A DNA stretch of 64,000 nucleotides from Chrysophaeum taylorii (Eukaryota; Sar; Pelagophyceae; Pelagomonadales; Pelagomonadaceae), in NCBI GenBank assembly GCA_029834535.1, contig JAQMWT010000546.1:1-64000 (forward strand), read 5' to 3'. The notes under the pieces are model-generated. The model was not told where the DNA came from, did no database searches, and worked only from the letters and a program-made list of their open reading frames with translations. The first letter of the stretch is position 1; every line of letters begins with the position of its first letter. Made by a program: the position numbers and the translations under genes. This document shows, piece after piece, positions 10,978 to 32,045 of the stretch.

Positions 10978-12840
10978 ATGGAAGGTAAGAACGACGATAA
11001 TTCAGGAGTGAGTGTCGACTTCTCGAAGCCTGACACGGTGGTGAACGCGACGTGGGGCGAGGTCCTCGCGGCGGCGGCTTCCGAGGCTCCCGACGCTCCG
11101 TTTTTGTCGTCGTGGTCGTCCGTCGAGGGCCGGTGTGTCGAAACGCTCAGTTTTCTCGAGTTTTATGACCGCGCGCGTGCTGTGGCGCGACGGCTGCGAG
11201 TCGATTGGGGCGCGAACGCGGGCGACGGCGTCGCGCTTCTGAGTCATCCGTCGGTCGACCTGTACGCGTGCGCGGCGGGCGTCCTGGTGCTGGGCGGCCA
11301 GTGCGTCAGCCTCAACTGGCGTCAGCCGGCCGTCGTCCTCGCTCGTGCCGCGGGCGAGACGGCACGCGCGCAGTTTTTGATCGTCTCGGCCGCTTTTGAG
11401 CGCCTCGCCGACGACATGGATTCGTCGGCCGAGAACGGCGGTCCTCAGTACGCGCGCCTCGCGCTCGCGCGCTCGCGACACAACGGCGCAACCAACACGC
11501 TCTCGACCTCGCCGCTCTTGGAATCGGAAGGAGGGCACGAAGACGTCAAAACCAACAACGGGGTGCGCGCCTGTGACCCGAGCGCGCCGGCGCTCGTCAT
11601 GTTCACGAGCGGCTCGACGGGCAAACCCAAGGGTGTGCCCATCACGCACGCGGGCTCGCTGTGGGCGTGCCGCACCAAGCTCGACGCCCACGGCGGCCTC
11701 GAGAACGTCCGTCCGAACGGGACCTTGAGCTTTCTCCCCAACTTCCACGTCATCGGCTTTATCAACAACTTTCTTTTCAACATGCTCTGCCGAGCGCCGT
11801 GCTACGTCCACCACGAGGCGGCGACCGGGCTGCTCACGGCGGATATCTTCGCCGCCGCGGCCAGCGACCTCGCCCCCGACGCGATCGACACGGTCCCAGC
11901 GATCCTCGAAGCCCTCGGCCGCGAAGCAATCGATCGCGGCCCCGACGAGGGCCGCGAGCTCCTCGCGCCCTTCGCGCGAGCAAAGATGGTCTCGTGCGGC
12001 GGCGCGCCCCTCTCGAGCGCGACGTACGATAAGCTCTCTGACTTTGGCGTCGCCGTCGTCCCTCAGTGCGTGCGTGTCTCCGCGTCGTGACGTGATTGTT
12101 TTTCGCAGTTATGGCCAGACCGAGCTCGGCGGCGGGTTCTGCCTGATGGGCCGGCCGCGCGCGGGCCGGGACCTCATGCGGCCGGTGCGCGGGGTGCGTA
12201 TCCTCGTGCTCGGCGACGACGAGGACCGGCTCGAGACGACCGCGGCCGTCGAGAGCCGACTCGCTGCTAATGGGGACGGCGAGGTGATTTTCGGGACCGC
12301 CGACCGCGGCGAGATCGTAGTCCTCGGCTGCGGCTCGGCGACGCCGGGGTACGCCAACGCGGAGCCGCCCGCCGTCCCGTTTTCGACGTCCCGGTCGACG
12401 GGCGACGTCTTCGAGGTTGTCGTCGGCGCTGACGGCGAGAAGTGGCTGCGGCACGTGTGCCGCCGCGACGACGTCATCATCCACGCGACCGGCGAGCTCA
12501 CGAACCCACTCCCTATCGAAGACGCCGCTTTGCGGGCCCTCGGCACGACGGAGGTCAAGCGCGTCGCAGTCGTCGGGCAGCGGCGGCCGTCTCCGGTCAT
12601 GTTCGTCGAGGAGGCGTACGCGGGCGCGCGCGAGGCAATGGACCTCTCGAAGGCCCTCGCTGTCGCCAACGCGACGGCCCCGGCGTATTCGCGCATCTCC
12701 AACGCGCGCGTCATCATCGTCGAGCCGGGCGCCGTCCCCGTGTCGGCCAAGGGCAACGTCGTTCGCCTCGATCTCGAAACAAAGTACGCGGCGGAGATGG
12801 ACGCGCTCGACGCCGAGCTCGCGGCGCTCGAAGAGGCGCT
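10978..12840 (+). other. PKS adenylation (AMP-binding) loading domain
   Basis: The P-loop TSGSTGKPKG is at about 11602-11632 and YGQTE at the exon 1/2 junction. RRDDVIIHATGELTNPLP lies at about 12460-12515, and the catalytic lysine is in VSAKGNVVR at about 12740-12765. The RxDDxI..GExxNP form and the AKGxVxR end resemble NRPS-like and carboxylic-acid-reductase adenylation domains more than amino-acid A domains. The domain probably activates a carboxylic-acid starter and loads it on the adjacent ACP. Substrate cannot be read from the sequence. Confidence 0.85.
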
Positions 12841-15800
12841 GAACTCCCGCGGGTCGGCAGGTCCGAAAAAACGTCGCCACCGCCACGCCCTCACCGCCAA
12901 GCCGGCCGAGGAGGTGCGGGAGGTGGTCCTCGCGGCGGCGACCGAACTCGTGGGCGGCAACGTGCCGACCGACGCGCCTCTCCTCGCGAACGGCCTCAAC
13001 TCGACGGGCCTCGTACAGCTCGTGAGAGTGCTCTCGGAGAAGCTCAAGATCGAGGGCCTCAAGCCGACCCTCGTCTTCGACCACCCTTCGGTCGACGCAA
13101 TCGTCGACTTTCTCGTCAGGCCTACCGACTACGACCTCGACGAATTTATACCTCCCGGGGCGGCGACGACGACGGCGGCCCCGGCGATCGCGTCCCGCGT
13201 GCTCCGGTCGCCGCCCGACGTCCAGGACTCGACCGCGTTCCTACAACGAGCCGTTGGGCGCTTCGACGCCGTGAGCGAGATCCCGATCCGCAAATGGGAT
13301 GTCGAGGCGGTCGAGACGACGTCGGATAAACTTCCCAAGCACGCGGCGCAAAGCACGCGGTACGGCGCGTTCCTCGACCCCGAATTCGAGTCGAGGTTCG
13401 ACGGCGACTTCTTCCGATGCAAGCGCGTCGAGGTCAACGCGATGGACCCCCAGCAGCGCCTGTTGTTGGACGTTGGCTTCGAGGCGCTCCACGCGACGGG
13501 CCATACTCGTCAATCCCTCAATGGCGCCAACGTCGGGACCTTCACCGGCGTCATGAACATGGACGCCCCCGCGCTCGCGCCCAAGCACTACGACCTCAAC
13601 GCGTACGTCATGATGGGATCGGGCTACTCGGCCCTCGGGGCCCGCGTCTCCTACGCCTTCGCGATGAGCGGCCCGTGCATGGTCTTCGACACGGCCTGCT
13701 CGTCGTCGCTCATCGCGGCGCACGTCGCGCGACGGAGCCTCGGCAGCCGTGAGTGCGAGTCGGCGCTCGTCGCCGCTCCCAACCTCATCTTGCTCGCCGG
13801 CTTCTTACATCTTGGGACCGCTATCATGGGCATGAACTCGCCGACTGGCCGATGCCATACCTTCGACGACCGCGCCGACGGCTTTGTCCGCGGGGAGGGC
13901 GCGGGAGCCATGGTTCTCGTACCGGGCGCCGACCACCCCGTCGTCTGCAGGGGCTCGGCGGCTAGGCACAACGGCCGCTCGGCCTCCTTCACCGCGCTCA
14001 ACGGCGCATCGCAGACCACGCTCATCCGCGCGGCGCTCGGCGACGCCGGCGCCAAAGGCGTGGAGATCGCGTACCTGGAAGCCCACGGTACGGGGACGGG
14101 CCTCGGCGACCCCATCGAGGTCTCGGGCGCCTCGACGCTCCTGTGTGGTGACGAGAGAGCGACGCCTTTTGCCATCGGTGGCGTCAAGGCCAACGCCGGC
14201 CACGCCGAATCGGCCGCCGGCATCACGGGCCTCATCGCGGCCTGCTGCGCGATCGACGCCGGCGTGCCGCCGCCGTGCGCTCAGCTGCGCCGCCTTAACC
14301 CGCAAGTCAGAGACGTGGCCGACCTCTCGTTCTTCGCGCCAGCCCTCGAGCAGTGCGAGCTGAGCGCCATCCCGCACCTCTCCAAGAGCAAGGCCGGGTC
14401 GAGCTCCTTCGGCTGGTCAGGCATCATCGCGCACGCCATATGCGAAGCCCCGGCGCGACGACCTGCTGCTGCGTCTTCTACCGTGCCGGATCAGGAAGAA
14501 AAAATTGAGACGTCCTTCGTCGTGACGACGCGACCTCCGCCGCCCGCGCTGTACCGCGCGCGCTACAGCGTCCCGAGACTCGGCGGACGCGGCCCGCCGC
14601 GTCCGCTGTTGCACGCGCCGATCGTGCCGACCCCGTCGGATGCGTCGTTGGTCGCGGAGACGCGCGTCGTCGGCAAGCTGTTTGCCGCGTTACGCGACCA
14701 CGTCATCGGGGGCAAGATCCTCCTGCCGGGCGTCGCATCGATGGAACTGGCGCTCTCGGGAGCGCTCGCAGCGCGCGGCCTGGGCGTCGCGTCGAGTCCC
14801 GTTACGCTCGCGCTCGCAGACGTGACTTTCGCGAGACCCTGCGTGCTCTCCTCGGAGACCGAGTGCGTCTTGACTGTCCGCGTGGGCTCGGACGGCGACT
14901 TCGAGGTGTCATCGGTGTCGGCAGGCTCGACGGCCCCTCCCACAACCAACGTCTTCGGCCGTGTCGACGAGTCTGCCGCGACCGACGACCGCGTCGACGC
15001 GCCAACCACCGCCCGCCGCCCGCTGCAAACGCACCCGGCCGACGCGGTTGGTTTGGTTACCCTCAAGCCGTCGCCTTCAGAGCTCACCGATAAGGTGTTC
15101 GTCCCTTCGAACGTCTCGAGCGTCACTCTCCACCTCTCCACGGGCGACGCGATGACGCGCAAGCTCTGCTTGGCTCGCGACAGGGCGCTCCTATCGACGT
15201 CGACCGACAACCTCGCCGACGCGGCACTCGTATCTGGGAGCGAGGTCTCGCTCAAGTACGCCTCGATTCGCACGCGCGCAATCGCTGCCCTCGCTAAGCC
15301 TCATTCGGACGAGGTTGTGTACTTGGTGCCAACGCTCAAGGCCGCCGTTGTTGCCAAAAAGGAGCCCCCGGTTGTTCTCGTCACGTTCGAACCCGACTCG
15401 TCGCCGCTGTTGGCGCGCGAGTCACCGCTCCCGTCCGCTCGCCCGGCCTTCGATGTCCGTGTGCACGTGTATTGGGACGCCTACGACGAGAAAAGAATCA
15501 CGTCGCGCGGCCCGCTCGAGGGGCCCCACAACGACAAGCTAGTCCTCGTCGATGCCAAGGGCGGCCGAGACGCGGCCGGGGCGCGCCGGCGCGTTTTGGG
15601 CGAGGAGGTTGTTGAGATGATCCGCGCAAGGGCAGCACCGAAGAAGGAGGATCCAGCGCCTTTACTACTACTTCGAGGGGCGGTCGTCGTAGCGTCGGGC
15701 TCGAGCGCGCTCACTCTGGCGGCGGCGTGTCAAATAGCGTCAACAACTTCAGATTGCGTCGTCGTCGTCGTCGTCGAGCGCGGCGGACCGGTCGCGAGGA

Positions 15801-18800
15801 ACTTGGCTGGCTACTTCGAGACCCTCTCGTGCGCCTCGAAAGTGTACTGCGTTGTGGGGGGAAATGGATACCCGCTGCCGTTCCCGTCTGAGAGCGTTGT
15901 CCTCCTTGAAACGGCGAGCCAGCCAACGCGCGCCGGCGACGGCCGCCGCGACGCGGCTCGCATCACCTTCGCGCCGATTGCTGCCGGTTCTGTGCTCCAA
16001 AGCGAGGCCAGGCTTCGAGGATCACCCCAGCTCATCGTGAGCACCAGTGCATCGAATACCGCTAAGCTCGACTCCCTGGCGCTGTTGTCGCGGCAATCGT
16101 TCGAGGCGGTCCTGTTGGCGCTTTCCTCGCGCACGATCGCCCCCGTTCTCAAGGAACCCGCCGCCAAGCCTTCTGGCCAAGCGGTCTCGGCTGCTGCGAG
16201 AAAAAAGCAGCCGCGTAGTGCGCGCAGACGCCCCGACAAAAAATCAAGTGGCGACGGCGGCAAGGCTGCAATCCTGACGACGGTGCGTAGCATCGCGACG
16301 TCGCTCGCCGGAGTCGACGTCGACTCGGACGCGCCCCTCATGGAAAAGGGCATCGACTCGCTCGCGGCGACGGAGCTCTCGCAAACGCTCTCGAAGAACT
16401 TCGGCGGAATCGACCTTCCGGCGACGCTTCTCTTTGACTACCCAACGCCCGCCGAGATCGCAGGTCTCTTGGCCTCCAAGCTCGAGACGGCGCCCTCGAG
16501 TCCAGACGCGGTGGACGACGACGACGACGACGACTTGGAGATTATGGCGAGTCCCGGCGACTTGGACGTCGCCGACGTGGCGCCATCGGGCTGGGAGGTG
16601 CAGGTCGCGGCCGTCGGCTGCCGGCTGCCGGCAGTCGACTCCCTCGACGATCTGCGGCAACTGACGAAGCTCGCGCTCGACGCCGGCGGGGGCGTGCCGT
16701 TGTCTCGGTGGGACGCTTCTGCGCTCGGCGAGAAACTGGCGCCCGACGTTGCCAGCCGCGCCTCGTACGGCGTCTTCCTGCGGGGCGTCGGCGACCTCGA
16801 CGCGGACTTCTTCCGCGTCAAGCCGCTCGAAGCCAACACGCTCGACCCGCAGCAAAAGCTCGTCCTCGAGGTCGGCTACGCGATGCTGCGCGACGCGGGC
16901 AAGGACCGCGACGCGCTCGCCGGCTCGCAGACGGGCGTCTTCCTGGGCATGATGAACGCCGACGCGGGCGAGATGGTGCCAGCGGTCCAGGACCTCAGCC
17001 CCTTCGACCTCACGGGCAACGGTTATTCGGCCGCCGCCGCGCGCCTTTCTTACGTCTTTGCGATGCGCGGGCCCTGCCAGACGGTCGACACCGCGTGCTC
17101 GTCGACGCTCGTGGCAACGCATGCCGCGCGCGACGCGCTCCGCTCGGGCGAGGCGGACGGGGCCGTCATCTGCGGCCCCAACCTCCACCTTCATGCGGGC
17201 GTCTCGATGGTCGGCGGCGCGATCGCCGCGATGAACTCGGTCACGGGTCGCTGCCATACGCTCGATTCGCGCGCGAACGGCTACCTTCGCGCCGAGGGCT
17301 GCGGAGGAATCGTCCTCGTGTGCGGCGAGGACATCGTCCCCGGAGGCGCCAAGGTGACTGGGCTCGCCGTCAAACACAACGGCCGCGCGGCCTCGTTCAC
17401 CGCCCTCAACGGGAGCGCACAGACCCGGTTGATCGAGGCGGCCGTCGACAACGCGCGCGTCCGGGCGAACGACGCGTCGCTTCTCGAGATGCACGGCACG
17501 GGCACGGCCCTCGGAGACCCCGTCGAGGTCGGAAGCGCCTCGCAGCTCTATGCCAAAGACCGCACGGGTCAGGGAATCGCCCTCGCCGGGATCAAGGCGA
17601 ACTTTGGTCACACCGAGTCCTCGGCTGGCGTTGCCGGCATCCTCAAGGCGCTCGTCCTCATGATAGACGACGACGTCGGGTGCAACGCGCAGTTGCGCGT
17701 GCTCAATCCCCAAGTCGCGTCCGTGCTGGCCGTCGGAACCGTGTGCTCGGTCGGTGCCGCACCGCGAGCGATAAAAATAAGCGGAGTCAGCAGCTTTGGG
17801 TTCTCGGGGATCATCTCCCACGCCGTCCTCGACGTCGACGCCCCGGCGCCCGCGTTCTCCAAAGTCGCGACTCGGCCGCTGCCGTCCCTGTATCGCGCCA
17901 AGCGCGCGTTCCGGTACGACGTGGCGCCGGACTCGCGGCTCGTTGCCTCGGGCAAGGCCAAACGCGCCTCGGCCGCTGGGACCTACGACGTTGACATTCT
18001 CTCGACCCGGCCCTCGAGTCCCCACGGATGCGCGTGGACGGTGACGACGACGCTCACAAAGGAACTCGTCCAGCTCATGACGGACCACAAGGTTAACGAC
18101 GTCGCGCTGTTTGCTGGCGTTGGCCTCGTCGAGCTTGGCTTTGCCGCCGTTTTGGCCAAGGCGCGTGACCGCGACGCGGCGCCTCCGTTCGCGCGCCTCG
18201 ACAACGTGCGCTTCATGAGGCCGTGCGTTATCGAGGACAAGCTCGTCATCGCGTGCTCGGTGACGGCGAGCGGCGGCTTTGAGATATATGCGAACGGTGG
18301 TCTTGTGTGCTCGGCCGACTCGTCGCTTCTCTCTTCGAACCGCGACGAGGTTTTTGCTGCTGCTGCTGCATTGTCGTCGGCTGGTAAAACTTGTTCGGCG
18401 TCGCTGGCGCTGCCGGCTTGGACGTCGTCAGTCTTGGACTCGGCGCGCGCGATCGAGAAGACGACGAAGCGCGCGCCGATCGAGGACGACGTTGGCGGCG
18501 GCGGCGAGAAGTACACACTCATCCCCACCAACATTGAATCCGTCTCGCTCGACGTCGAGGCGCTCGCCTACACAGGGGCTCGTACGACCGACAAGATTGA
18601 AGACCATCGGTCGAAGCTGGTCGCGAGGTTTGTGGCGACGCTCGCGACGCCGAAAGAGGAGAAAGCCGACACGTTCGCGCGCTTACCAGACTCGCCGACG
18701 CCGTCATACGTGATTAGATCGCTTACCGTCAAGGCCACGGGCCCGCCGAAGAAGATCGAACCTGCGACCTCCGAGGCAGTCGCCTACGAGATTGCGTGGA

Positions 18801-21800
18801 TCCCCGCGCGAGAATCCCCGCACCTGGTGCGGAAACGTCGCCTTGTTGGCGACCGCTCGTTCGAGTACAACGCGTTCGGTCCCGCGGCAGTCACGGTCGT
18901 CCAGCTCGCCGGGCAGCAACTCCCGGCGGCGGCCTCGCTCGATGTCCGAGCTGTGGGTGGCGCCTTCTTGGGCATCACGTCGCCGACCAGATGCATCCAC
19001 GCCCCAGACTTGCCGACGCTCCTCGCGGCCGCGCGCGCCCTCGAGCCTCAGAGCGTTTCACGACATCTAGCTGACCCGTCGCAGCTTGAGAGGGTGTCCG
19101 TGTTCTCGACCGAGATCCTTCGCGACGGCGACGGTTCCGTTCTCTCGTTCGTGCCGCTCGAGCGAAAGCTCACAATCGTCAAAAGGCAACAGCAGACGGC
19201 ACCAATGCCCGTCGCTGGCGCAGTCGTCGTGCTTGGAATGTCCGCGCTCGCGGCTGCCGCGGCTGCCGCGCTTGCAATCGACGCGCCTATCCTCGCGGAA
19301 CCAGACTTCGTCCTCAAGAACGCTAAAGTCTTGGGCGGCAAGCGTGTCTTCGCGTGCGATTCGGCAAGAACCATGCTGTCTCGCGCGCCCTCCATATCAG
19401 CGCGTGGCGACGTGTGGGTCGTGGGTGACGAAGCCGACGCTTCGGCGACCAAAGCGATTGTTGCGGCGCAAGGCTACGCTGCGTCGACGCTACTCTTCCG
19501 CCGCGCTGAGTTTGCCCCTTTCGCGGCGATGATTGGCTCGACGCACGACGGCTTGCGGGCGACGACAGTGTTCGCGTCCGACTCGATGTCGGCTGCGAAA
19601 AAATTCGTTGCGCTCTCCCCGAAGAACGTCGCCCTCGCGGAAACGATGCTGTCGTGCCTGGCCTCGACGCTGTTCGTTCGCTTGCCTCTGCAATTGGAGG
19701 TGACGAGGGGACGCTCCACTCCTGCGAGATCGCCGAGGTCGCGAGCCATCGCTGCCCCAGCAGCGAAGACGGGGACTACGACGCCGGCAGCGTCCTCTTC
19801 TTCATTGTCGTCATCTTCTTCTCGTGCGAAGAGTGGACCGAGCAAGGACGAGCTTGTTGCTTCAATCACCCAGATCGCGCAAAAGCTGATCGGCACGTCT
19901 CCCGAGGCGACAGCACCCCTGATGTCATCTGGATTCGACTCGCTATCGAGCACCGAATTCACCAAGAAGCTGGGAATAGAGTACGACCTGGAGTTACCAT
20001 CGACGGTGTTGTTCGAACATCCGAGCATCTCGGCTATCGCAGGCTACCTCGAAGACAAGCTCGCGCCTGCGGCTACCAACGCCGCTGTTGTTCGTCAGAT
20101 CGAGGCGACACAAGAGACATTGACGCCGCCGCCGCCGCCGCAGCGAACCGCACCGAAGCAGCGAAAAACACGAGCAGCTGCTGTTCCAGTCGGTGTTCAA
20201 AAGAAAGCAACTCCGGCGCTACCCAAAGCGAGCGTGCCTGTCAACAAGCGCGACAAGTCGGAGCTCGTCGCGTCGATCACACAGATCGCGCAAAAGCTCA
20301 TCGGCACGGCCCCTGAGGCGACGGCGCCGCTCATGTCTTCCGGCTTCGACTCGCTATCCAGCACCGAATTCACAAAAAAGATTGGCATCGAATTCGATAT
20401 CGAGCTGCCTTCGACTGTCTTATTCGAGCATCCGAGCATCTCGGCAATCGCCACGTTCTTGGACTCCAAGCTGGCACCCACGACCGTTGACCACGCGCCT
20501 GCGACCGACCAAACGGTCGCGAGCCCGGCGGAGGTTGTCGACGATTATGACGACTACGACGACGCGCCGGAGGTGGACGCTGACGTCGACGTCGCAGCGT
20601 GGTCGCGAGACGAGCTCCTCGACGTGAGCGACATGCGCGGGCAGGTGGCGATCGTGGCTGGCGCGAGCCGCGGTATTGGACGCGCGATCGCGCTCGCGCT
20701 CGCGAAGCGCGGGTGTGCGTGTGCCATATTCGGCCAGAGTACCGTGCAGAAGGTCGCCGACGAGTGCGAGGCGTTGGCAGGACCTGGCCGCGGACTCGGC
20801 CTTCGCGTGGACTTGCGCGACAAAGAGAAGGTCGAGGAGGCGATCGCCAAGGTTCTCGCCACCTTTGGCGGCCGACTGGACGTCCTCGTCCAGTCGGCCT
20901 CCGTGCACAGGGGGGGCGATATCCTAAATATCACCGAGAAGGGATTCGACTTCGTGTTGCACACCAACGTCATCGGCACAAGCATGATCATGCACACGTG
21001 TGCGCCAATCCTCCTCAAGTCGCCGCAGCCTCGCGTGCTCCTCGTCGCGCCCGGCGCCGTCTCGGCCAAGTCGTGGCTTAATTTTGCACGTGGAAGCACC
21101 ATCTACTGCTCAGCTAAGCTCATGATGGGCTTCTACCTCGAGCTCTGGGGCAAGGCGTATCCCGAAATTTCCATGTCGACGCTCTGGCCCAAATATGTCG
21201 TCGAATCCGCCGCGACGGATTCGCGTCAGGGCTCGAACAAACACCTCCAGGCTGATCAGAGGAAGATGGTCAAGCCGATTTTCATGGGCGAGGCGGCGGC
21301 GCTGGTGTTGACACGCCCGCAGACGACGCCCCGCATTGGCTGGGTCGACTACCACCTCGATGCCGACATCCACATGGCGATGGGTGTTGGGCGCGCACAC
21401 CGGGACTTCCTCAACGTTGACGGCAAGCCGTGGAACGAACTCGAGGTGTGCTTCCAGGTTGACGTAGAGGGCCGCAAAGATCTCGTCGAGGTCTACGAGG
21501 TGAATCCGCCGCCGCGTCCGGCGGCTACGCACGCGAAGAAGAAGAAGATACTTGTGATCGGAGACGTCTTGCTCGGCGACCTCGACAGCATCGATGTCGC
21601 CGTCGTCGTGTGCGGCGGCAGCGGCGCGGCGCCACAGCTCAAGAATAAGGAAGCCATCGTGTCCCCTGGACCTGCGGACGTCGAGGCCACGCTCGACCAA
21701 GCCATCGAGTCGCTCGGGACATATGCCCTCGATGCCGTGATCGTAGCGAGCGACGCGACGGCGTCTGCCGCCCCTGTCGAGGACCTCGGCGCGGCATACG

Positions 21801-24800
21801 ATCGTTTCGTCAAGTTCCCTTTCTTCGTGATGCGCGACCTTAAGCGCCGCCGCGATATGCTACGTGTCGACAGCGTCGTCGTTGCGTCGGCGCCGCCGGA
21901 CGTATTTCCGCTTGCCAATGCGCACGTGACGCTGAACGAGGTGCTTCTCGACAGGGCGCTCGTCTCGCTCGCCATCGCGATAGAGCTCGACAAGGAAAAG
22001 GACGCCCGCAACTACGAGATCAGACTCTGCTGGCCCGCATCGACGACCTTCCGCCTTCCTGCGTCTACGGCCGACAAGACCGAACTCGCTCGAACGGCGC
22101 TCGCGTTCGCGCTCGACACAGCCTCGCGGGACGTTCCTCCCGCGAGCTGCGCGGTCATTCGCGACGAACCCAACGGCTCCCCTCGGTCGAAGGAGCTCGT
22201 CACGCGGCTAATGTCGCCAGCATACGACGAAGTCGCTGGCTACTCGCCATTCCAGCCTGCGAGCGATCGCAAGTTCTGGCTTTCGCCTTTTGCGGCGGCC
22301 GAAGGCGGTTCGCGACGGCACTCGCTGACGACCACGCCGGACGTAGTCGCGACGAGGTTCGCGCTCCCCGGATACGTCGCGACGCGCGACGCGACCGAGC
22401 TCCGCGAGTTCCTGCTACGAGGCGGCGACGCTCTCGGGGTGGTGCCGCAAGGCCGCTGGGAGACGCCCGTCGCCGGGGCCGAGCACTCGGCTATCTATGG
22501 CGGGTTCCTGGGCGATCGGTTTGCTGCCGACTACGAGTGCACCGGAATGGTCGCCGTCGAGGCGCGCTGGGCAGACCCGCAGCAGCTGCTCGTACTCGAG
22601 GCGTGCTGCGGCTCAGCTCACGAGGCCCTGCGCGACGAAGCGTCGACCACCTTTGAGCGCCACGCGCTCGCGGGCAAGAACGTCGGCATGTACCTGGGTT
22701 GCGGTGGCGTCACGTACGGCAGCGGCGGTTTGGCCGACGCGTCGTCGCTCCGCAAGGCCGCCAAGTTCAACCTGTACACGGGGACTTCGTCGACGCTTTC
22801 GGTCGCCGCGGGTCGCGTACCGTACGTGCTCGGCCTTGTCGGTCCGTGCCTGTCGATCGATACGGCATGCTGCTCGAGCCTGGTCGCGACCCACGTTGCG
22901 GTCAAGGCGCTCGCCGCCCTCGAGTGCGAAGCGGCCATCTCGGCCTCGGTCGGAATCCTGTCGGAGCCGGCGAGCACCGCCTTCTCGATCGCCGGCATGT
23001 TCTCGCCCACTGGACGGTGCTTCACGTTCGACGCGTCGGCGAATGGCTACGCGCGCGGCGAGGGTTGTATTAGTTACGTCCTCGACCCTTCGCGACGACG
23101 ATCGACGCTCTCGCCCGCCGGCGTTCTGGGGACGTCGGTCCAACAAGACGGGCTCTCGGCGAGCCTGACTGCACCGAACGGCACGGCGCAGCGGAGGCTG
23201 ATCGCGGCGGTCGCGAACCGCGACGACGACTCCTCCTCCTCCCGCGCGTGGGAGTCGCTCGAGGCTCACGGCACGGGCACGGCGCTCGGAGATCCGATCG
23301 AGGTCGGCGCGGCCGCGGCGACGCTCTGCGACGCCCAAGGCCGCTCGACGCGGGCCACCTCGTTCAAGGCCAACGTCGGCCACCTCGAGTCGGCCGCCGC
23401 GGGCGCGGGGCTCGTCGCGCTTCTCGCGACGACCCTCGACGCCGGCGCGATAGCGCCCAACGCGCGCCTGCGACGTCTCAACGGCCACCTCTCGGGTTTT
23501 GTCCGCAATAGTCCGTTCTTCGCGCCGGTCGAGCCGACGCTCGCGTCGGGTGCGACGGCTGCCGACGGGGGGCGGCTGCTGCTCAACGCGGGTCGCTTGA
23601 GCTCCTTTGGCTTTAGCGGGACGATCGCTCACGCGCGTTTCGAGGCTCCCGATCGTCGCGAGACCGTCCGAGCCGTCGTCGCCGCCGAGACGGGGCCGGA
23701 GCTCTTCCGGTCTCGCGCGTTATTGCCGATCTCGCCGTACCCAGCCGGGCTCGCGCGGATTCAGGTGGCTGGGGCCGCCGCGCTGCTCCCGCCAGTCGGT
23801 GGTGGCTTTGATCTCACCTCGATGGACGAAACGGAGGAGCTCGACGAAGACGACGACGACGACATCGAGGACGCGCCGGCCGTCGTCGTCGACGTCGCGG
23901 GCATCGTCGCCGAGGTGATGGGGTTTGAAGTCGACGTGCAAAAACCGCTGATGGACGTGGGGCTCGACTCGTTCGTAGCTGGCGAGCTGATGAATCAGCT
24001 CAGCAGCGCGGCGCGCGCCGAGCTCCCGGCGACTCTTCTCTTCGACTATCCGAGCGTAGCGAGCCTCGACAAGTTCCTCCAGTCTGACGAGCTCATGCTC
24101 GTCGCCACCGGTAACGACGAGGCCCGCGAGGAGCGCCGGCGCCGTCGCACCGAACACCGCCGCAGGCAGCAGCAGCAGCAGCAGCTCTCGGTCATCTCCG
24201 GCGAGTCGTCGTCGTCGAACATCCAGGGAACGCGCGCCGTCGTGGGCTCGGAGGCGCGGACGCCATACGGCTCGCCGCTCTCGGCGATCCGCGACGCGCA
24301 CGCCGCCTCGATCATCGCCGTCGCCGAGATGCCGAACTCGCGATTCGACGAGGACCTTTTCGCCCGTGACTCGTACCCGATCGCCGCGACTTACGGCGGC
24401 TTCGTCGCGGTCGACGACTTGGAGCGCTTCGCGATGGAGTCGTTCGGCCTGAGTCGCGCCGAATCGGCCGCCATGGACCCCCAGCAGCGCCTCGCGCTCG
24501 AGGTTGGCCACTCGACGCTAATTCGCGACGGCGGTTACGCGCCCGACGATCTCCTCGACGCCAACGTCGGGTGCTACGTGGGCGTGCAGACGAGCGACTT
24601 TTACGATCTCGCGCGCCGCAAGACGTCGGGCGTCTCTGCGACGTACCTCGCCACGGGTGCCAACCACGCCGTCGCGTCGGGCCGCCTCCCCTACGCGCTC
24701 GGCCTCCGCGGCGCATCGATGGCCATCACCACGGCGTGCTCGACGGCCCTCGTCTGCTGCCACGAGGCGCGCGCGGGCTTGGAGCTCTCGGCGGACTCGC

Positions 24801-27800
24801 GGGCCGCGCTCGTCGTCGCCGTCAACCTCAACCTCTTGGCCGCGATGACGGTCGGCGTCGCGAAAGCCGGCATGCTTTCGCCCAAGGGTCGCTGCCACAC
24901 GCTCGACGAAGCCGCCGACGGCTACGTGCGATCCGAGGGCTGCGTCGGCATTCTCGTGCGTCTCGCGAGCGCCGCGCCCGCCGCGAAGGACGCGGTCGTG
25001 ATATCCGCGACGGCCGTCCGCTCGGACGGCCGCAGCGCGAGTCTCACGGCACCGAGCGGCCTCGCGCAGCAACAGCTCCTGCGCGAGGCCCTCGCCGAGG
25101 CATCGACCCACGATTCGTCGTCGTCGTCGTCGCCAGACGAGGCCCGTCGAACTCTCGACCACGTCGAGCTCCACGGCACGGGCACCGCGCTCGGGGATCC
25201 TATCGAGATCGGGGCGCTGTCGGCCGTTTCGACGCGGCACGTCGTGCCGACCGTTGCCGCCGTCAAGGCCAACGTCGGCCACAGCGAGACCTGCAGCGGC
25301 GCCTTTGGCATCGGCGTCCTCGTCGAGCTCGCGCTCGCGGCCCAGCAGGCCGCGCCCCAGGCCTGTCTGCGCACGCTCAACTCGCGCCTAACGCACTTTT
25401 CCGAGCGCTTTGTGGGTCCGGTCGACCTCGCCCCCCGAGCGAAGACGGAAGGCGGCGTCAGTTCCTTCGGCTTCTCGGGAGCCATCGCCCACGTTCAGCT
25501 CGGCCTCGAGTCGTTTCCCGCCAGGTTTGTCGACTTTTTGTCAAACCCCCCGCCGCCGCCTGGTAAGTTTTTGTCGACTCGCAGGACGCCCGAGAAGATC
25601 TCGGAGGTCCTGCAGAAAAATCAACGCGAACAAGATCCGCCGGCGGAGCCGCGGCCTTTGCGGCGCGTTCACGTCCGGATACCGTTGGTGGAGTCGCGCG
25701 CTCCGACGCCCGCGGTGCAGCGAGCGAGCGCCGTCGCTATGGCCGAGGAGATGGAGCGCGAGAAGCGCGCCGCGTCGGTCGAGGACGACCTCCGACCCGT
25801 CGTGGCGTACGAGGTGCGTTGGGCACCTCGCAGCGCGGCCCCTCGACCAAAGAACGCCACCGAACTCGCCGACGACGTCGAAGGCCGCTACGCGCCGATC
25901 GAGGGGCTCGCGCTCATCGTCGGCGCCGGTCTCGACGGCGTCCTGTGCGCGGCGGCTTTCGCGCGCGCCGGCGTGCCGTACGTGGTCTTCGAGCGCGATA
26001 ACCACGTCGCGGGCGTCTGGGTCACGCAGGCGAACGCGACCTCCAAGGTGCAAACGGGCAAGTTGACGTACACGCTCGACCTCTCGGATCCGGCGCCCGA
26101 CGTCGCGAAGGAGTCCAACTACCAGCCCGCCGACGAGGTGTGCACTCGGATCTCGGAGTTTGCCGTCCGTTTCGGCGTCGATACCCGCACCTACCTCGGC
26201 CGAGAGGTGTTGTCCGTCCGGTACGGCCGGCGGCACGACGAGGTCTTCGTGACGTGGCGCGACGTGCGGACGAACGAAGAAACGGAAACCAAATTTGGCG
26301 CCATCGTCTTCGCGTGCGGCGCCCTGCGCGCGCCGACGATCGCGCCCTCGCTCCAAGGCGCGGCGTCGTTCCGCGGGTTCGACTCGTACGGCGTCGCGGC
26401 CGACATGGCACCGTGCGAGATGGCCGGTCGCGACGTGGTCGTCGCGGGCCACGGGGCCTACGGCGTCGAGAACGTCCGCACGGGACTCGAACACGGAGCC
26501 AAGACGATCACCGTCGTCTGTCGGCATAGGCATTCGGTTCTCCCCCGCTGCGCCGTGTGGGTCCTCGACGCCGGCCGAGAGTTCGACGCGTGGAAGGAGA
26601 TCTCTGCGATGCTGGGGCTGTCGAAACTTCGACCCGAGTACACGACCGACCGCCGCAAGCGACCGGCCGTCTCGGACCAGTACTACGTCGCGATGCGCTA
26701 CGGTCGCGCCGCGATCGTCCACGGCGCGATCACGGGTTTCGACGTGGGCGTCGACGGTCGCGCGGTCGTCGTCGTCGACGATACGCTTCGAATCCCCGCC
26801 GAGATCGCCCTCCTGTGCTACGGATTTTCCAAGGAGACGACCCGCATCAACGAGATCATGGGGGTCGAGGAGCTGACGGGGATCTGGGTCAACGGACGCC
26901 GCACCTCGGCCATCCTCAAGGCCGACCTCGACGTGCGCCGCGAGGCGACCCCTCTCTCGGCGTCCAACATTCCCTTCGCCACCTTCCTCGGCAACCTTAT
27001 CGCCCAGTTCCTCAAGCGGCCGATGGACTTCGAAAAGGTCAAACCTCGACTCCCCAAGGCGGGAGTGACCCAGGACACGACCTCCTTCGACTTCTTCGCC
27101 TCCATGTTTCTCGCGCTCGTCGGATACGCCGAGGTCAAGCCCCAGCTCGACAAAATCGTCCGCCGCGTCCAGCACGCGAGCGTTCGCGACGTCATGCCGT
27201 GGGACGCCTTCGTCAAAGACTGCGAGGCCGATTGGCGCCGCTACGTGGCCGTGTGCAAGCGCGATTCTACGGGATTGGGGGGTATTCCGTACGCGGACTG
27301 GCCCGACCGCGCGGTGCCACCTCACAAGGACGGCATGGGCCTCGCGAAAATTCAGCAGCAGTCGTCGTCGGCGGCCTCGCACTGGGTTACGGTCGTATCG
27401 TGCGCCTCGGACCTCGGCCGGCTCGAGGCGAGCAGCAAGAGTCTGACGTCGCGATCGCTCGCCCTCGGCGCGCATCTCGGCCGGCCCGCCGCGACGCTGG
27501 CTATCGTCCATCCGCGCTCCTTGGACGACCTCGCCGTCTTGACGCGGTACGCGGCGACGAGCGACGCGATCGCGTACGCCGTGGTCGTCCTCTCGGACCG
27601 CCTTCCGACGACGCCGTTCCTCGCCCAGGTTCGCGTGGCGCGGGTCGAGATGCCGAAGATGAAGCTCGCGACGTTCTCGTACGAGCGCGGACCCCGGCCC
27701 GGACAGCTCGAGTCGCTCTTGGCGCGGCCGCAGAGCGCCGACGTTCGGCTCGGCCAAGGCGATAAAGAGCTCGTGCCTACGCTCTGCTCGTGGCGCGAGC

Positions 27801-30800
27801 GGAAGACGACGACAGCAGCAGCAGCAGCGAAAGTTGCCGGACCGCCGCTCGGCGGACGCGCGCTCGTGACCGGCGGCACGGGCGCGCTCGGCCTCGTCGC
27901 GTCCGCCCTGCTCCTCGAAACGGGCGAGGCGAGCCTCGTCATGATCGGCACGCGCCAGCCGCGCGTCAGACTGCTGGCCGACCCGCTGGTGCCGCGGCTC
28001 TACAAGCTCGCCGCGTCGGGTCGCGCCGTGGTGGTCAGCGGCGCCGACACGAGCGATCCGGAGGCGATGGCGCTCTTCGGGCGCGTCAATCCAGTGCCCG
28101 ACGAGGCGAGCGGACAAGTCGGCGCCGTCGTCCACGCCGCCGGCGTCTTGCACGACGTCATGCTCGGCGGCCTCGAGAAATGGATGGCCGACAAGGTGCT
28201 CGTACCCAAGACGGCCGGGCTCCCGGCGCTCAGGTCGATGGTCGAAGCCTCGAATCGCGGCAGGTTCGTGGGTTTCTCGTCGGCGACGGTCGTGCTCGGA
28301 GGGCCGGGTCAGACCGCGTACGCCCACGCCTCGGGCGCGATCGACGCCTTCGCCGAGGAGGCGAGGTCGCGCGGTACCTTTGCCACGACCGTCCAGTGGC
28401 TCGCCGTCCGCGGCGTCGGTATGCACCAGGAGGCCGTCGGCTCGGCGCCGCAGTGGACGCCGTTGTCGCGCGTCGAACAAGTCCTCGCGCATCTCGTGCA
28501 CGGCGTCTACGGCGACCGCACGGCCCTCTCTTCGCCTCCGTGCTCGGTTTCGGTGCTCCCGGAGGCATTCTTAAAGTTCTTGCCCCCGACGGTCGACCTC
28601 GCGGTCGAGGACGACCCTTCGCTGCGACCCGGCGAATCGGCCGAACAACCCAAGAAGAAGATGAAGAAAAAGAAGAAGGAATCCAAGTCCAAGTCCGAAA
28701 AGAAGAAGAACAAGAAGAAGAGCGGTGGGGAGGATGTGTCGGCCGTCGTGGACGCGGCTCTCAACAAAACGCTCTCGACGGTGGTCGGGGACTACGACCC
28801 GGCGACGGGCGCGGACGTGCCTTTCATGGAGATGGGTGAGTTTTTGCGGTGCAATATGATGGTTGAGAACAAAATGCGTAGGCGTCGACTCGATGGGGCT
28901 CACCGACTTTGTCAACTCGCTGAATACGTCGCTCGACGTCGAGCTTCCAGAGGTCGCGCTCTTCGAGCACCCGACCGTCAGGGATTTGCGAGCGGCTCTT
29001 CTCGAGATGGTTGCCGCAAAAGGAGGCGGCGGCGGCGGCGGCGACGACGACTTTGACGACGACGACGACGACGACGTGGACAATGATGATTTGGAGTACG
29101 CCGCCGAAGAGTTGGACGACGTCGCGGTTCCGGGATCGATCGATATCCGCCGAGAGGCCCCGAAGCTCGCTCTGGCGTCGATGTACGGCTCGCTCGCGCT
29201 CGGAGACCTGGTCGACCGCGGGTTCTGGGCGCAGCTTCGGAGCGGAGCGTGCGCTGTTGGGCGGCTGCCTCTGGACCGCGTCCATTCGAGCCTCCTCGGA
29301 TCGGCGAACCCGTTCGTCGCCGATCCCGAACTCCGCGTTCGCCGCGGCCCGGGGGCTTCGGACGACGACGCGCTTCGAGCCCTGGATTTGCCGGCGACGG
29401 CGCGGTACGGCGGCTTTGTCGAGACGGCGCAGTGGGTGGCCTTCGACAACGAGGCCTTTGGGATCGCCAAGCAGGAGGCGCGCGTCATGGACCCGCAGCA
29501 GCGGCAGCTCCTCGAGTCGGGGCTCGGGGCCCTCGAGGCGGCCGGAATCAGTCGGACGTCGATCCGCGACGGCTTGAGCGCCGACGAGCCCTGGACCGTC
29601 GGGAACTTCGTCGCGCTCCAGACGAACGACTTCGCGCGGGCGATCGTGCGCACGCCCAAGCTCGTCGCGAGCACCTACGCCGTGTCCGGGGCAAACCCGG
29701 CGATCGCGGCGGGCCGGTTGGGGTACGCGCTCGGGCTCCGCGGCGCCGCGATGTGCGTCGACACGGCGTGCTCGACGGCCCTCGTGTGTCTGCACGAGGC
29801 GCGACTCTCCTTCTACGATACGCCCAACGAGCCGGCGCTGGTGTCGGCGGTCAACGCCATGATCGACGCCTCTGTGACCGAGGTCGTCGAGCGCGCCGGC
29901 ATGTTGTCGCCGCGCGGTCGGTGTCACACCTTCGACGAGCGCGCCGACGGCTACTGCCGCGGCGAGGGCGTCGTCAGCGTCGTGCTCCGACCCCTGGACG
30001 CGACGCACGAGGGCGTGGCGCCGCTCGGCGCATCGGGGTTGGCCGACCGCGGCGTCGAGATCGCGTCGACGTCGCTGCGGTCGGACGGTCGCACGGCATC
30101 GATCACCGCGCCCAGCCTTCCCGCGCAGCGCGAGCTCCTCCTCAAGGCGCGCTCGACGTCACGATCCCCCGACGAGGTCCTGTGCGCCGTCGAGTGCCAC
30201 GGCACTGGTACGGCGCTCGGCGACCCGATCGAGATCGGCGCGCTCTCGTCGCACGTCGAAAAACACGAGGCGACCACGATCCGAGGCCTCGACGTGGCGC
30301 TCGGGGGTGTCAAGGCCAACCTCGGCCACCTCGAGCCGGCGGCGGGCTTCGCCGGCCTCGCAGCCCTCGTGCAACTCTGCGATGCCCAGACCGTGCCGAA
30401 CGTCCAGCTTCGTCGCCTCAACCACCAGCTCGATTCGGCGCTCTCGGCGCCCAAGTCGACGCGCAGGGTCCGCGCGGGCGTCGACTCGGCGATGCCGCTC
30501 CCGATGCATCGCCGCCGGGATGTTGCCGGCACCGAGAACCGCAGCGCGTCGTGCGTCTCGTCCTTTGGCTTTTCGGGCATCATCGCGCACGCCCGAGTCT
30601 CCTTTGCCGCGCCGTTTAGCAGCAGTTCCGGCGACGGCGGCGGCGGCGGCGAGACGAACGGTCGCGCGACCGACGTCGTGCCGCCGCAACTCGTCGCCGA
30701 GCCCCGCCCGTCGCTCTACCGCAAGCGCGTCAACTACGAGTGGCTCGAGGTCGTCGAGCCCCTCGTCTACGGGCTGGACGCGCACGCGCGCAACGCGCCC

Positions 30801-32045
30801 GATGTCGTCGGTCTCCAAGCTGTAGGGTCCGCCCCCAAGACGGCGACGACGAAGACGACGAGGAAGGCCTGGGACGCGACGGAGGTTCACAAGGCGGTCC
30901 GTGCGATCGTCGAATCCCTCGGCGGCGACGTCGCCTCGAACGGAGACGACGCCGAATTCGTCGACATGGGCATCGACTCGATCGCAGCGACAGAGCTTTC
31001 GCGCGAGATCGCCTCGAAGTTCGATCTCGGAAAGCTGCCGCCGAGCTTCGTGTTCGACAACCCGACGGTGACCACGACCGTTACGGCCGTTTCCGAGCTC
31101 CTCCGCGACCAGCAGGCTACCGAGGCCGCCGCCACCACCACCACCACCACCACCACCACCAGAGCGGCAGCGTCGAACGAGCATCTCACCATGTTCGGCC
31201 CGAGCCGCCGCGCGCACCGCGGCGCGCTCTTCCTCTGGAGCGGTGGCCAGGGCGACGCTTCGGCGTTTGCACGCCTCGGGAGCAGGCTCGGCTCGGAGCT
31301 TCGCGTCTATGGCGTCGACCGTGTGCCGAACCACAACGTCGGCCAGATGGCCGACGTGATGGCCCCCGCCATCGCCGCGTGCGTGCCCGAGGGCGATGCC
31401 GCGTGCTATCTCGGCGGTCTTTCGGTCGGAGGCTGGCTAAGCGTCGAAACGGCTATGCGCCTCGAGCGCGACTACAACTGTCGCGTGGCCGCGATCTTCT
31501 CGCTCGACGGCGTGCCCCCCGTGCAACTCGACACGGGTCCCTACGAACCCGACGTCGGTGCCTCGGAACTTATCCGCGGCCGCGGTTTCGCGCTTCCTGA
31601 GGGCTGGGGCGCCATGTCGGCCGAGAAAAAGGTCGAAAAATTTGCGCAACTTCTACCGAGCCTCGGCATCGACTTCATTGGGGGGGACGTCAAGGCCGGT
31701 AAGGCGGTCGACCCCATCGAGTCCATCTCGTCGGATCTCGTCAACGGCGCCAAGATGTTCATGAAGGCACTCTGCGGCGGTGAGTACGATGAAAAGACCA
31801 CCAGGCTCCCCAACACCGAACTCATCGCCTTCCGCGCCTCTGAACGCAACGAGGTCAAGATGCTCAAGGACTCGGACGTTGGAGCCTATCCGCATATCTA
31901 CTCCTGGGCCACGCCAGGAGTACCCAACGTTCGCGTCATCGACATGCCTGTCTCGCACATGCACATCTTGATGCACAATCACCTACTAGACGCCATCGCG
32001 GGTCACATACTCGCCAACACAGATAGGCGGAATCGCCCGGGCTGA
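10978..32045 (+). CDS. Giant modular polyketide synthase without acyltransferase domains (predicted 6,992 aa)
   Basis: Three exons (10978-12065, 12109-28835, 28882-32045) join in frame after removal of 43- and 46-bp GT-AG introns. The chosen start is the first in-frame ATG; the frame is open upstream only to non-ATG codons. Domain order by residue is: adenylation 1-607, ACP 627-700, KS1 737-1143, DH 1207-1494, ACP 1745-1823, KS2 1860-2273, DH-like 2340-2566, twin ACPs 2940-3153, SDR 3204-3470, KS3 3774-4209, ACP 4287-4357, KS4 4410-4832, FAD monooxygenase 4962-5423, KR up to about 5820, ACP 5905-5980, KS5 6032-6514, ACP 6602-6678, TE 6712-6992. All five KS keep Cys-His-His. No GHSxG acyltransferase was found anywhere, so malonyl units must be loaded by a separate enzyme. 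Asp-runs and a Lys-rich linker join the modules. The product is unknown. Its chain probably starts from an activated carboxylic acid and is released by the TE. Confidence 0.88.
12066..12108 (+). other. Intron 1 of the polyketide synthase (43 bp)
   Basis: The donor is GTGCGTGCG and the acceptor is TTTTTCGCAG. Removal joins VVP-H to YGQTELGG, restoring the adenylation-domain A5 motif and the reading frame (43 bp shifts frame by one, as required). The unspliced frame stops at 12090. Confidence 0.88.
12899..13120 (+). other. PKS ACP1 (loading carrier domain)
   Basis: The helical carrier-domain pattern has the phosphopantetheine site written as G-L-N-S-T-G (Ser codon 13001, residue 661). Asn replaces the usual Asp before the Ser. 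It is followed by LVFDHPSVDAIVDFL, the typical helix 3 end of a PP-binding domain. Confidence 0.8.
13231..14450 (+). other. PKS ketosynthase KS1
   Basis: The complete KS has DPQQR (about 13443), DTACSSS with the active Cys codon at 13697 (residue 893), EAHGTGT with His codon 14084, KANAGH with His codon 14201 and the GSSSFGWSG end motif. All catalytic residues are present. Confidence 0.93.
14640..15500 (+). other. PKS dehydratase-like domain DH1
   Basis: The hot-dog motif HxxxGxxxxP is intact (His codon 14699, residue 1227, reading HVIGGKILLPG). It is followed by a LADVTFARPC strand as in PKS dehydratases. The second catalytic Asp is not obvious. No acyltransferase lies between KS1 and this domain. 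Confidence 0.65.
15640..16160 (+). other. PKS segment after DH1, unassigned (possible degenerate Rossmann fold)
   Basis: The segment has a beta-strand-rich start (RGAVVVASGSSALTLAAA) and ends with ALSSRTIAPVLKEP just before the ACP linker. It lacks a clear GxGxxG motif. Its place, and a similar segment after the second DH-like domain, suggest a decayed reductase, but this is inference. Confidence 0.35.
16255..16490 (+). other. PKS ACP2
   Basis: Canonical carrier motif G-I-D-S-L-A-A-T-E with Ser codon 16358 (residue 1780) and the LLFDYPT helix 3 signature. An Asp-run linker follows at 16514-16536. Confidence 0.92.
16600..17840 (+). other. PKS ketosynthase KS2
   Basis: The complete KS has DPQQK, DTACSST with Cys codon 17096 (residue 2026), EMHGTGT with His codon 17492 (Met replaces the usual Ala before His), KANFGH with His codon 17609, and the SSFGFSG end motif. 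Confidence 0.93.
18040..18720 (+). other. PKS degenerate dehydratase-like domain DH2
   Basis: The layout parallels DH1 but the hot-dog motif reads H-K-V-N-D-V-A-L-F-A (His codon 18086, residue 2356). The conserved Gly and Pro of HxxxGxxxxP are replaced by Asp and Ala. The strand VRFMRPCVI corresponds to VTFARPCVL of DH1. It is probably inactive or altered. Confidence 0.55.
19840..20480 (+). other. PKS twin ACPs (ACP3-ACP4)
   Basis: Two carrier domains of about 75 residues are nearly identical, with runs such as ELVASITQIAQKLIG and APLMSSGFDSLSSTEF in both. Serine codons lie at 19940 (residue 2974) and 20351 (residue 3111). A Pro/Gln/Lys-rich linker separates them. The identity indicates a recent internal duplication or homogenisation by gene conversion. 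Confidence 0.93.
20630..21430 (+). other. PKS-embedded HSDL2-type short-chain dehydrogenase
   Basis: The Rossmann motif GASRGIG is at about 20660. The catalytic Y-C-S-A-K has Tyr codon 21104 (residue 3362) and Lys codon 21116 (residue 3366). The S-T-L-W-P-K segment just after matches the ALWPK phrase of hydroxysteroid-dehydrogenase-like protein 2. This is a classical free-standing SDR type, not the usual two-part PKS ketoreductase. It could reduce beta-keto groups for the modules that have DH but no KR. Confidence 0.85.
22340..23645 (+). other. PKS ketosynthase KS3
   Basis: The complete KS has DPQQL, DTACCSSL with active Cys codon 22868 (residue 3950) followed by a second Cys, EAHGTGT, KANVGHLES and LSSFGFSG. 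The module has only an ACP after it, with no reducing domain. Confidence 0.93.
23880..24090 (+). other. PKS ACP5
   Basis: Carrier motif G-L-D-S-F, Ser codon 23969 (residue 4317), followed by LLFDYPSVASL. A Gln-rich tract (CAG repeat near 24167-24183) follows. Confidence 0.9.
24250..25515 (+). other. PKS ketosynthase KS4
   Basis: The KS has DPQQR, I-T-T-A-C-S-T-A-L with Cys codon 24737 (residue 4573; Thr replaces the usual Asp two before Ala), ELHGTGT, KANVGHSET and SSFGFSG. The N-terminal part is shorter than in KS1-KS3. Confidence 0.92.
25905..27290 (+). other. PKS-embedded flavin monooxygenase (FMO/Baeyer-Villiger-like)
   Basis: Two dinucleotide-binding motifs are in the order and spacing of class B flavoprotein monooxygenases: G-A-G-L-D-G (FAD, about 25921) and G-H-G-A-Y-G (NADPH, about 26449). 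Between them is FRGFDSYG, where the family fingerprint FxGxxxH has Tyr in place of His. C-terminal FMO-like text continues to about residue 5423. The domain would put oxygen into the chain while it is carrier-bound. Whether it hydroxylates or inserts oxygen cannot be told. Confidence 0.8.
27370..28480 (+). other. PKS ketoreductase (structural plus catalytic halves)
   Basis: The catalytic half has TGGTGALG (about 27870) and HAAGVLHD (about 28133). FSSATVVLGGPGQTAYAHA follows, with the catalytic Tyr codon at 28319 (residue 5767). The preceding 27370-27800 looks like the truncated structural sub-domain of PKS KRs. It is the only canonical KR in the protein. A Lys-rich linker (about 28647-28730) follows. 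Confidence 0.88.
28735..29008 (+). other. PKS ACP6, split by intron 2
   Basis: The carrier domain is built from both sides of the 46-bp intron. After splicing it reads G-V-D-S-M-G with Ser codon 28890 (residue 5942), followed by ALFEHPTVRDL. Confidence 0.88.
28836..28881 (+). other. Intron 2 of the polyketide synthase (46 bp)
   Basis: The donor is GTGAGTTTT and the acceptor is ATGCGTAG. Removal joins FMEMG to VDSMG and so rebuilds the G-x-D-S phosphopantetheine motif of the sixth carrier domain. The frame shift of one matches the frame of the 3' exon. Confidence 0.9.
29160..30610 (+). other. PKS ketosynthase KS5
   Basis: The complete KS has DPQQR, VDTACSTAL with Cys codon 29769 (residue 6235), ECHGTGT, KANLGHLEP and SSFGFSG. 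Like KS4 it has the S-T-A-L form after the Cys, which groups the last two KS together. Confidence 0.93.
30870..31100 (+). other. PKS ACP7
   Basis: Carrier motif G-I-D-S-I-A-A-T-E, Ser codon 30978 (residue 6638), followed by FVFDNPTVTT and a poly-Thr linker coded by an ACC repeat (31133-31162). Confidence 0.92.
31200..32045 (+). other. PKS C-terminal thioesterase
   Basis: An alpha/beta-hydrolase TE end domain. The nucleophile elbow is G-L-S-V-G-G with Ser codon 31422 (residue 6786). FSLDG has Asp codon 31506, and a His-rich SHMHILMHNH near the C-terminus can provide the catalytic His. It would release the finished chain as an acid or a lactone. Confidence 0.85.

Follow-up and report, generated by a model that had tools for sequence, protein, structure and literature searches.

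A modular polyketide synthase of Chrysophaeum taylorii that lacks an acyltransferase, and a candidate loader acting in trans

How is a modular polyketide synthase (PKS) loaded when none of its modules carries an acyltransferase (AT)? This question is raised by a gene of the pelagophyte Chrysophaeum taylorii, which was studied within a window of 64,000 nucleotides (the whole stretch of DNA analyzed, positions 1 to 64,000 of contig JAQMWT010000546.1, hereafter C546, other contigs being designated likewise) and through scans of the 70.8-Mb, 697-contig assembly; PMC10366177 gives 71 Mbp and 702 contigs for the published genome. AT-less PKSs occur in other algae (Shelest 2015, PMC4661987), and the largest PKS category of C. 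taylorii is modular, without integral AT and always with an N-terminal adenylation-like domain, FAD-dependent oxidoreductase domains also being found among the synthases of this alga (Davison et al. 2023, PMC10366177). The novelty implied by the earlier note on this DNA is thus smaller than suggested, since AT-less, adenylation-loaded PKSs of C. taylorii were described in 2023 and the gene is public at NCBI. It is probably among the 12 type I PKSs drawn in PMC10366177, where the text accessible to us mentions neither this gene by name nor its homologues, a KS tree or the AT supplier. In the accessible parts of PMC4661987, PMC7073580 and PMC10366177 a separate AT is assumed and not named, and the same holds for the separate AT gene presumed for the chlorophyte AT-less PKS (PMC7073580). 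What is new here is a concrete candidate for the trans-acting loader, together with the conservation of the synthase beyond C. taylorii.

Gene model and domain order

Splicing out two GT-AG introns turns positions 10978 to 32045 of the forward strand into a single predicted protein of 6,992 residues, the sole stop lying at its end; the coordinates and length given in the earlier note are right. Over 12044-29056 the frame of the main exon runs for 5,670 codons without a stop, and each of the five other frames contains 43 to 166 stops there, which excludes a chance open frame of this size. A protein search identified the NCBI counterpart as the hypothetical protein CTAYLR_003388 (6,972 aa), which is also one gene model, and the domains are fused in homologues too. 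The NCBI protein is shorter because an additional in-frame 60-nt GT-AG stretch (25525-25584) has been spliced out. No targeting peptide was seen by eye, and the protein is probably cytosolic. The features of the gene, all on the + strand, are as follows.

10978..32045, +, whole PKS gene CTAYLR_003388; exons 10978-12065, 12109-28835 and 28882-32045
11038..12940, +, adenylation (AMP-binding) loading domain split by intron 1; PF00501 2.4e-38, PF23562 6.2e-16, local HMM
12066..12108, +, intron 1; 43 nt, GT-AG
12923..13114, +, ACP1; PF00550 8.6e-6, GLNS at the presumed attachment Ser
13259..14446, +, KS1; DTACSS/HGTGT/KANAGH, Pfam and local HMM
14549..15223, +, DH1; PF21089 9.5e-12, HxxxGxxxxP present
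15224..16279, +, DH1 tail and degenerate region, fold not assigned; no Pfam match, hhalign to KR 5.4%, model pLDDT 40.7
16280..16474, +, ACP2; Pfam and local HMM
16673..17830, +, KS2; DTACSS/HGTGT/KANFGH, Pfam and local HMM
17960..18607, +, DH2, degenerate; PF21089 3.9e-7, motif His present, Gly and Pro gone
18608..19864, +, degenerate region after DH2; nothing over the Pfam cut-off, hhalign supports neither KR nor AT
19865..20050, +, ACP3; Pfam and local HMM
20276..20461, +, ACP4, in tandem with ACP3; Pfam and local HMM
20609..21373, +, SDR of stand-alone type (HSDL2/FabG-like); PF00106 1.4e-23, GASRGIG and YxxxK present
21374..22414, +, SDR-to-KS3 region, conserved in P0005 and P0006; nothing over the Pfam cut-off
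22415..23644, +, KS3; DTACCS/HGTGT/KANVGH, Pfam and local HMM
23894..24079, +, ACP5; PF00550 9.8e-9
24305..25501, +, KS4; TTACST/HGTGT/KANVGH, Pfam and local HMM
25525..25584, +, possible third intron; 60 nt, in frame, GT-AG, spliced out in the NCBI model
25895..27139, +, FMO-like flavoprotein domain; PF07992 1.3e-7, two GxGxxG, fingerprint His replaced by Tyr
27140..27853, +, region before KR, conserved in P0005, P0006 and P0162; by position perhaps the KR structural half
27854..28399, +, KR catalytic half; PF08659 1.4e-30
28778..29000, +, ACP6, split by intron 2; splicing and local HMM
28836..28881, +, intron 2; 46 nt, GT-AG, where the P0006 reading also ends
29238..30599, +, KS5; DTACST/HGTGT/KANLGH, Pfam and local HMM
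30894..31088, +, ACP7; PF00550 7.5e-10
31218..32042, +, terminal thioesterase (TE); PF00975 2.5e-8, GLSVGG nucleophile motif

Using Pfam and local HMMs, the order A-ACP-KS-DH-ACP-KS-DH-ACP-ACP-SDR-(unknown)-KS-ACP-KS-FMO-KR-ACP-KS-ACP-TE was obtained. The five KS, seven ACP, A, SDR, FMO, KR and TE domains listed in the earlier note are all present on the one predicted polypeptide; the list was incomplete, two PKS_DH_N domains (9.5e-12 and 3.9e-7) having been overlooked. The A-ACP loading unit at the N-terminus resembles that of the AT-less, A-loaded modular PKSs of algae.

No AT was detected, either with Pfam on whole frames (E 0.01) or with a local AT profile. Ten pieces covering most linkers were likewise negative at E values up to 2, a range in which most matches above 0.1 are already discarded at the filter stage of HMMER, and Pfam and hhalign revealed no AT remnant hidden in the linkers. 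The absence of an AT after any KS, which the earlier note had proposed to check by HMM search and would have given up upon finding such a domain, thus holds, and the reading as a modular PKS without AT, encoded in the nuclear genome of an alga, is supported. A cis-AT modular PKS would carry one AT per module, which CTAYLR_003388 does not; it has five KS modules and no integrated AT, as in the A-loaded algal type.

The chlorophyte megasynthase of the Chlamydomonas type is alike in its N-terminal A domain, numerous KS modules, lack of AT and TE, as far as the accessible parts of PMC7073580 and PMC4661987 describe it; it differs by 10-11 highly reducing modules, whereas CTAYLR_003388 has five KSs, an in-line SDR and an FMO-like domain.

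The window around the PKS contains no tRNA or Rfam match. Ten other ORFs of the window were scanned with Pfam, of which three gave no match; the others, located at window positions 32651-63435, correspond to GT8-like, Sec23, P-type ATPase, Rad4/PUB, Pex24-like, SRP68 and LRR proteins. These matches, over or near the Pfam cut-offs, are of housekeeping type, so that a biosynthetic gene cluster in the window was rejected and the PKS lies outside any visible one. The accessible text of PMC10366177 likewise describes biosynthetic genes of C. taylorii as not clustered.

A candidate trans-acting loader

Searching the assembly for the AT family (PF00698) gave 14 matches on 11 contigs. Eight of these contigs also bear a KS match and three, C191, C595 and C362, do not; a discrete AT, as expected for a trans-AT system, is thus encoded on each of the latter. 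Four phosphopantetheinyl transferase matches over cut-off completed the genome search proposed in the earlier note, whose suggestion that the synthase depends on a trans-acting AT remains the best reading, now backed by the discrete AT candidates and these matches.

On C595, a thioesterase-like part is followed by an AT in one open frame of 826 codons, annotated as CTAYLR_009457 (793 aa). In Pfam the AT alone exceeded the cut-off. The thioesterase half matched RifR-type PDB entries at about 1e-6, and PF00975 is on record for relatives of the protein. In the PDB the AT half matched malonyl transferases of mitochondria and bacteria, the mitochondrial MCAT best of all, as well as the trans-ATs DisD and PksC. 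This is the only full-length copy of the fusion in the genome. A protein search returned 14 matches, namely the protein itself, 11 relatives and two weak AT matches, one of them from Streptomyces. A taxon is given for three of the 11 relatives, all pelagophytes (Pelagophyceae sp. CCMP2097 and two Aureococcus anophagefferens entries), and the other eight are without taxon. RifR, DisD and PksC correspond to separate halves of CTAYLR_009457, and the fusion was found among the 14 matches only in named pelagophytes and taxon-less entries.

Ten of the 12 known fusion sequences were aligned, two irregular Aureococcus models being omitted. Residues S110, D214 and H242 of the thioesterase half and S582 and H692 of the AT half, which we take to be active-site residues, are invariant in all ten. 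Seven of the aligned fusions have no N-terminal extension and three have extra N-terminal residues. The seven fusion ATs included in a 35-row AT tree formed a single clade (100/100), which lies towards FabD and apart from the ATs of type I synthases. A scan with the AT of CTAYLR_009457 and the stretch preceding it as seed gave at least 563 bacterial loci; the best 80 of these matched from residue 442 on, and in none of the 80 did the best segment include the thioesterase half. No paper naming this fusion of pelagophytes was found among the top matches in titles and abstract starts of the open-licence literature. Aureococcus also possesses an AT-less protein with three KSs and an AMP-binding domain (P0156), so that fusion and AT-less PKS co-occur in two named genera, the only ones compared.

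Taken together, these results make CTAYLR_009457 a good candidate for a trans-acting loader that would both load and edit CTAYLR_003388. We consider that the latter is probably a modular, non-iterative PKS loaded in trans, most likely by CTAYLR_009457, and that its TE releases the product. From the domain families, the A domain would adenylate a carboxylic acid and load it onto ACP1. Because CTAYLR_003388 has no AT of its own, the module ACPs would be malonylated by a discrete transferase, CTAYLR_009457 being the likeliest, and its thioesterase half may clear wrongly acylated ACPs. The five KSs, whose motifs are complete, would then extend the chain, each being used at most once, with tailoring by the predicted DH1, the in-line SDR, the FMO-like domain and one KR before release by the terminal TE. 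With one gene copy and both presumed active sites intact, the loader question becomes directly testable in vitro.

Several observations speak against this assignment. The gene of this putative partner lies on a contig other than that of the PKS. Since the AT falls on the FabD side and matches the mitochondrial MCAT best, a role in fatty acid synthesis, for instance mitochondrial, is possible. Three of the ten aligned sequences do carry extra N-terminal residues, and C191 or C362 could load the synthase instead. The single-domain enzyme of C191, a plain FabD-type malonyl transferase, could act in trans on the AT-less synthase while the fusion serves something else, all the more as FabD can replace trans-ATs in some bacterial systems. 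This reading seems rather unlikely to us: C191 outscores C595 against ordinary FabD structures and hence may be a fatty-acid enzyme, and the stretch before its AT may, by eye, be a targeting peptide, which neither the PKS nor the fusion carries; moreover, a type II thioesterase joined to an AT would make little sense in plastid fatty acid synthesis. In the C362 candidate (L037:4601-6679) several short exons together encode the AT; the sequence after it looks PB1-like by eye, and there is no KS match on this contig.

The genome also encodes single-KS PKSs with an AT (C10, C5, C24 and C320), and these could lend their domains across proteins. We give this only a slim chance, given that AT lending between PKSs is not known as an established mode and that discrete ATs are present.

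Returning to loading by CTAYLR_009457, a broader proposal can be put forward tentatively: pelagophytes may have evolved a fusion of a proofreading type II thioesterase with a malonyl transferase that is dedicated to all their AT-less megasynthases; it would have arisen in eukaryotes, separately from the trans-AT systems of bacteria, in which AT and acyl hydrolase are distinct proteins.

At C464:70342-70863 (-), on a contig with a KS match, lies a second stretch similar to the thioesterase half of the fusion (27%, 6.2e-5).

Relatives of the synthase and KS phylogeny

There is evidence, from sequence comparison, that the synthase is conserved beyond C. taylorii. P0005 (6,913 aa) shares 55% identity across the query, and its domains follow the same order. 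A second relative, P0006 (5,122 aa), is incomplete, its reading ending at the place of intron 2. P0162 from Aureoumbra lagunensis (3,086 aa), which we take from its accession series to be of transcriptome origin, has the order KS-ACP-KS-FMO-KR-ACP-KS-ACP-TE, corresponding to the back half of CTAYLR_003388, with 58% identity over the exon-3 part. This conserved family, with its back half also in Aureoumbra lagunensis, provides a well-delimited starting point for assigning a metabolite to a pelagophyte megasynthase.

Within C. taylorii, the KS family (PF00109) gave at least 45 matches on at least 22 contigs, and three more AT-less multi-KS frames were found on C557 (5 KS), C407 (5) and C28 (4). 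On C564:92279-111269 (-), tandem KS matches are spaced about 4.86 kb apart, three in open frames of 677-678 aa followed by broken copies, one with 8 stops; the arrangement looks like a birth-and-death array. KS and AT matches at C10:113118-115616 and C297:113143-115641 are identical in score and spacing and would represent haplotypes or a recent duplication. At C320:129581-133999 lies an AT-KS-ACP-ACP frame, whose AT and KS form long branches in the respective trees.

A KS tree of 136 rows was built by a quick method, 69 rows coming from bacterial proteins, 12 AT-less and 12 AT-bearing (up to three rows each), and 67 from others; the own KSs of C466, C356, C109, C564 and more, as well as the named chlorophyte and haptophyte AT-less PKSs, are outside this sample. 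All five KSs of CTAYLR_003388 fell into a 41-row clade (SH-aLRT 99), made up of C. taylorii KSs and of proteins taken as eukaryotic from their domain make-up, which includes none of the 36 bacterial trans-AT KSs (12 proteins). Nesting among these 36 was not found in this tree. C320 and C334 are long KS branches, and C334 was placed among the bacterial trans-AT rows. AU tests on 84 of the 136 rows did not reject joining the algal AT-less clade either to the bacterial trans-AT KSs (p 0.115) or to the AT-bearing KSs of C. taylorii itself (p 0.589); a first topology, with the CTAYLR_003388 KSs alone beside the bacterial ones, was uninformative since it breaks up the algal clade as well. The phylogeny proposed in the earlier note thus separates the KSs from the sampled bacterial trans-AT ones and rejects neither alternative grouping.

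KS1 and KS2 fall together with the corresponding first and second KSs of C557 and C407 (SH-aLRT 99 and 100), these paralogues of the same genome being nearest after P0005 and P0006. KS4 and KS5 group with P0005 and P0006 only (98). The front half is therefore shared with C557 and C407 and the back half is different, which perhaps arose by exchange.

Bacterial trans-AT PKSs are alike in AT-less modules, tandem ACPs, a stand-alone AT and unusual in-line tailoring domains; CTAYLR_003388 differs from them in its separate KS clade, its lack of a gene cluster and a candidate AT joined to a thioesterase. That the gene is a horizontally acquired, fused bacterial trans-AT cluster, for which the joint clade at p 0.115 leaves some room, appears very improbable in view of the 41-row clade, the introns and the same-genome neighbours of KS1 and KS2. 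The KS data are compatible with a possible origin through AT loss within algae, the model outlined in the accessible part of PMC4661987. A decayed, non-functional megasynthase, as DH2 and several degenerate regions might suggest, is scarcely credible: the 21 kb contain no frame breaks, the motifs of all five KSs are intact, P0005 has the same domain order at 55% identity, and the Aureoumbra protein is 58% identical over the exon-3 part.

Tailoring domains and degenerate regions

The Cys-His-His residues of all five KSs are retained (Cys, HGTGT and KANxGH motifs). Taking HxxxGxxxxP as the DH motif, DH1 has it entire and DH2 has the His alone, so DH2 is probably inactive. PDB matches of the SDR include 3e03 (2.5e-23) and HSDL2, 3kvo (2.6e-21). 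PDB matches of the A domain were too weak and mixed to predict a substrate.

The regions without Pfam match were compared with known folds. The region after DH1 might be a dead KR, hhalign giving 14.6% and falling to 5.4% without own-family rows (model pLDDT 40.7, too low to interpret). The same reading of the region after DH2 was rejected, since a strong KR signal came from the paralogues C557 and C407 within the alignment and hhalign otherwise gave no support. The region before KR scored 94.3% as a KR structural half, a circular value since the profile held the P0006 row; without own-family rows it was 4.2%. For the SDR-to-KS3 region, a low-confidence model (mean pLDDT 44.6) had Foldseek SDR matches at E about 1e-4, and hhalign to SDR, at 1.3%, gave no support; the region is perhaps, on weak evidence, a second, degenerate SDR fold.

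The structures nearest to the FMO-like domain are flavin monooxygenases (PDB 8z17, 6.6e-9), and it also matches the PKS-borne 8odw. It likely performs an oxidation step. The Baeyer-Villiger oxygen-insertion modules of trans-AT PKSs are similar in having a flavin monooxygenase in an AT-less PKS, here located after a KS; CTAYLR_003388 differs from them in missing the FxGxxxH fingerprint. With FxGxxxHxxx(W/Y) taken as the Baeyer-Villiger fingerprint, the His is present in none of the eight aligned KS-following FMO copies, namely those of CTAYLR_003388 (PKS546 in the alignment), P0005, P0006 and P0162, which have Tyr at this place, and those of P0007 (two), P0019 and P0146, which have Arg. Baeyer-Villiger chemistry is thus not supported by the motif. 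P0007, P0019 and P0146 likewise lack an AT, and these PKSs contain modules of the order KS-FMO-ACP; their FMOs share 22-29% identity with that of CTAYLR_003388, which suggests that these KS-linked FMOs belong to a wider class.
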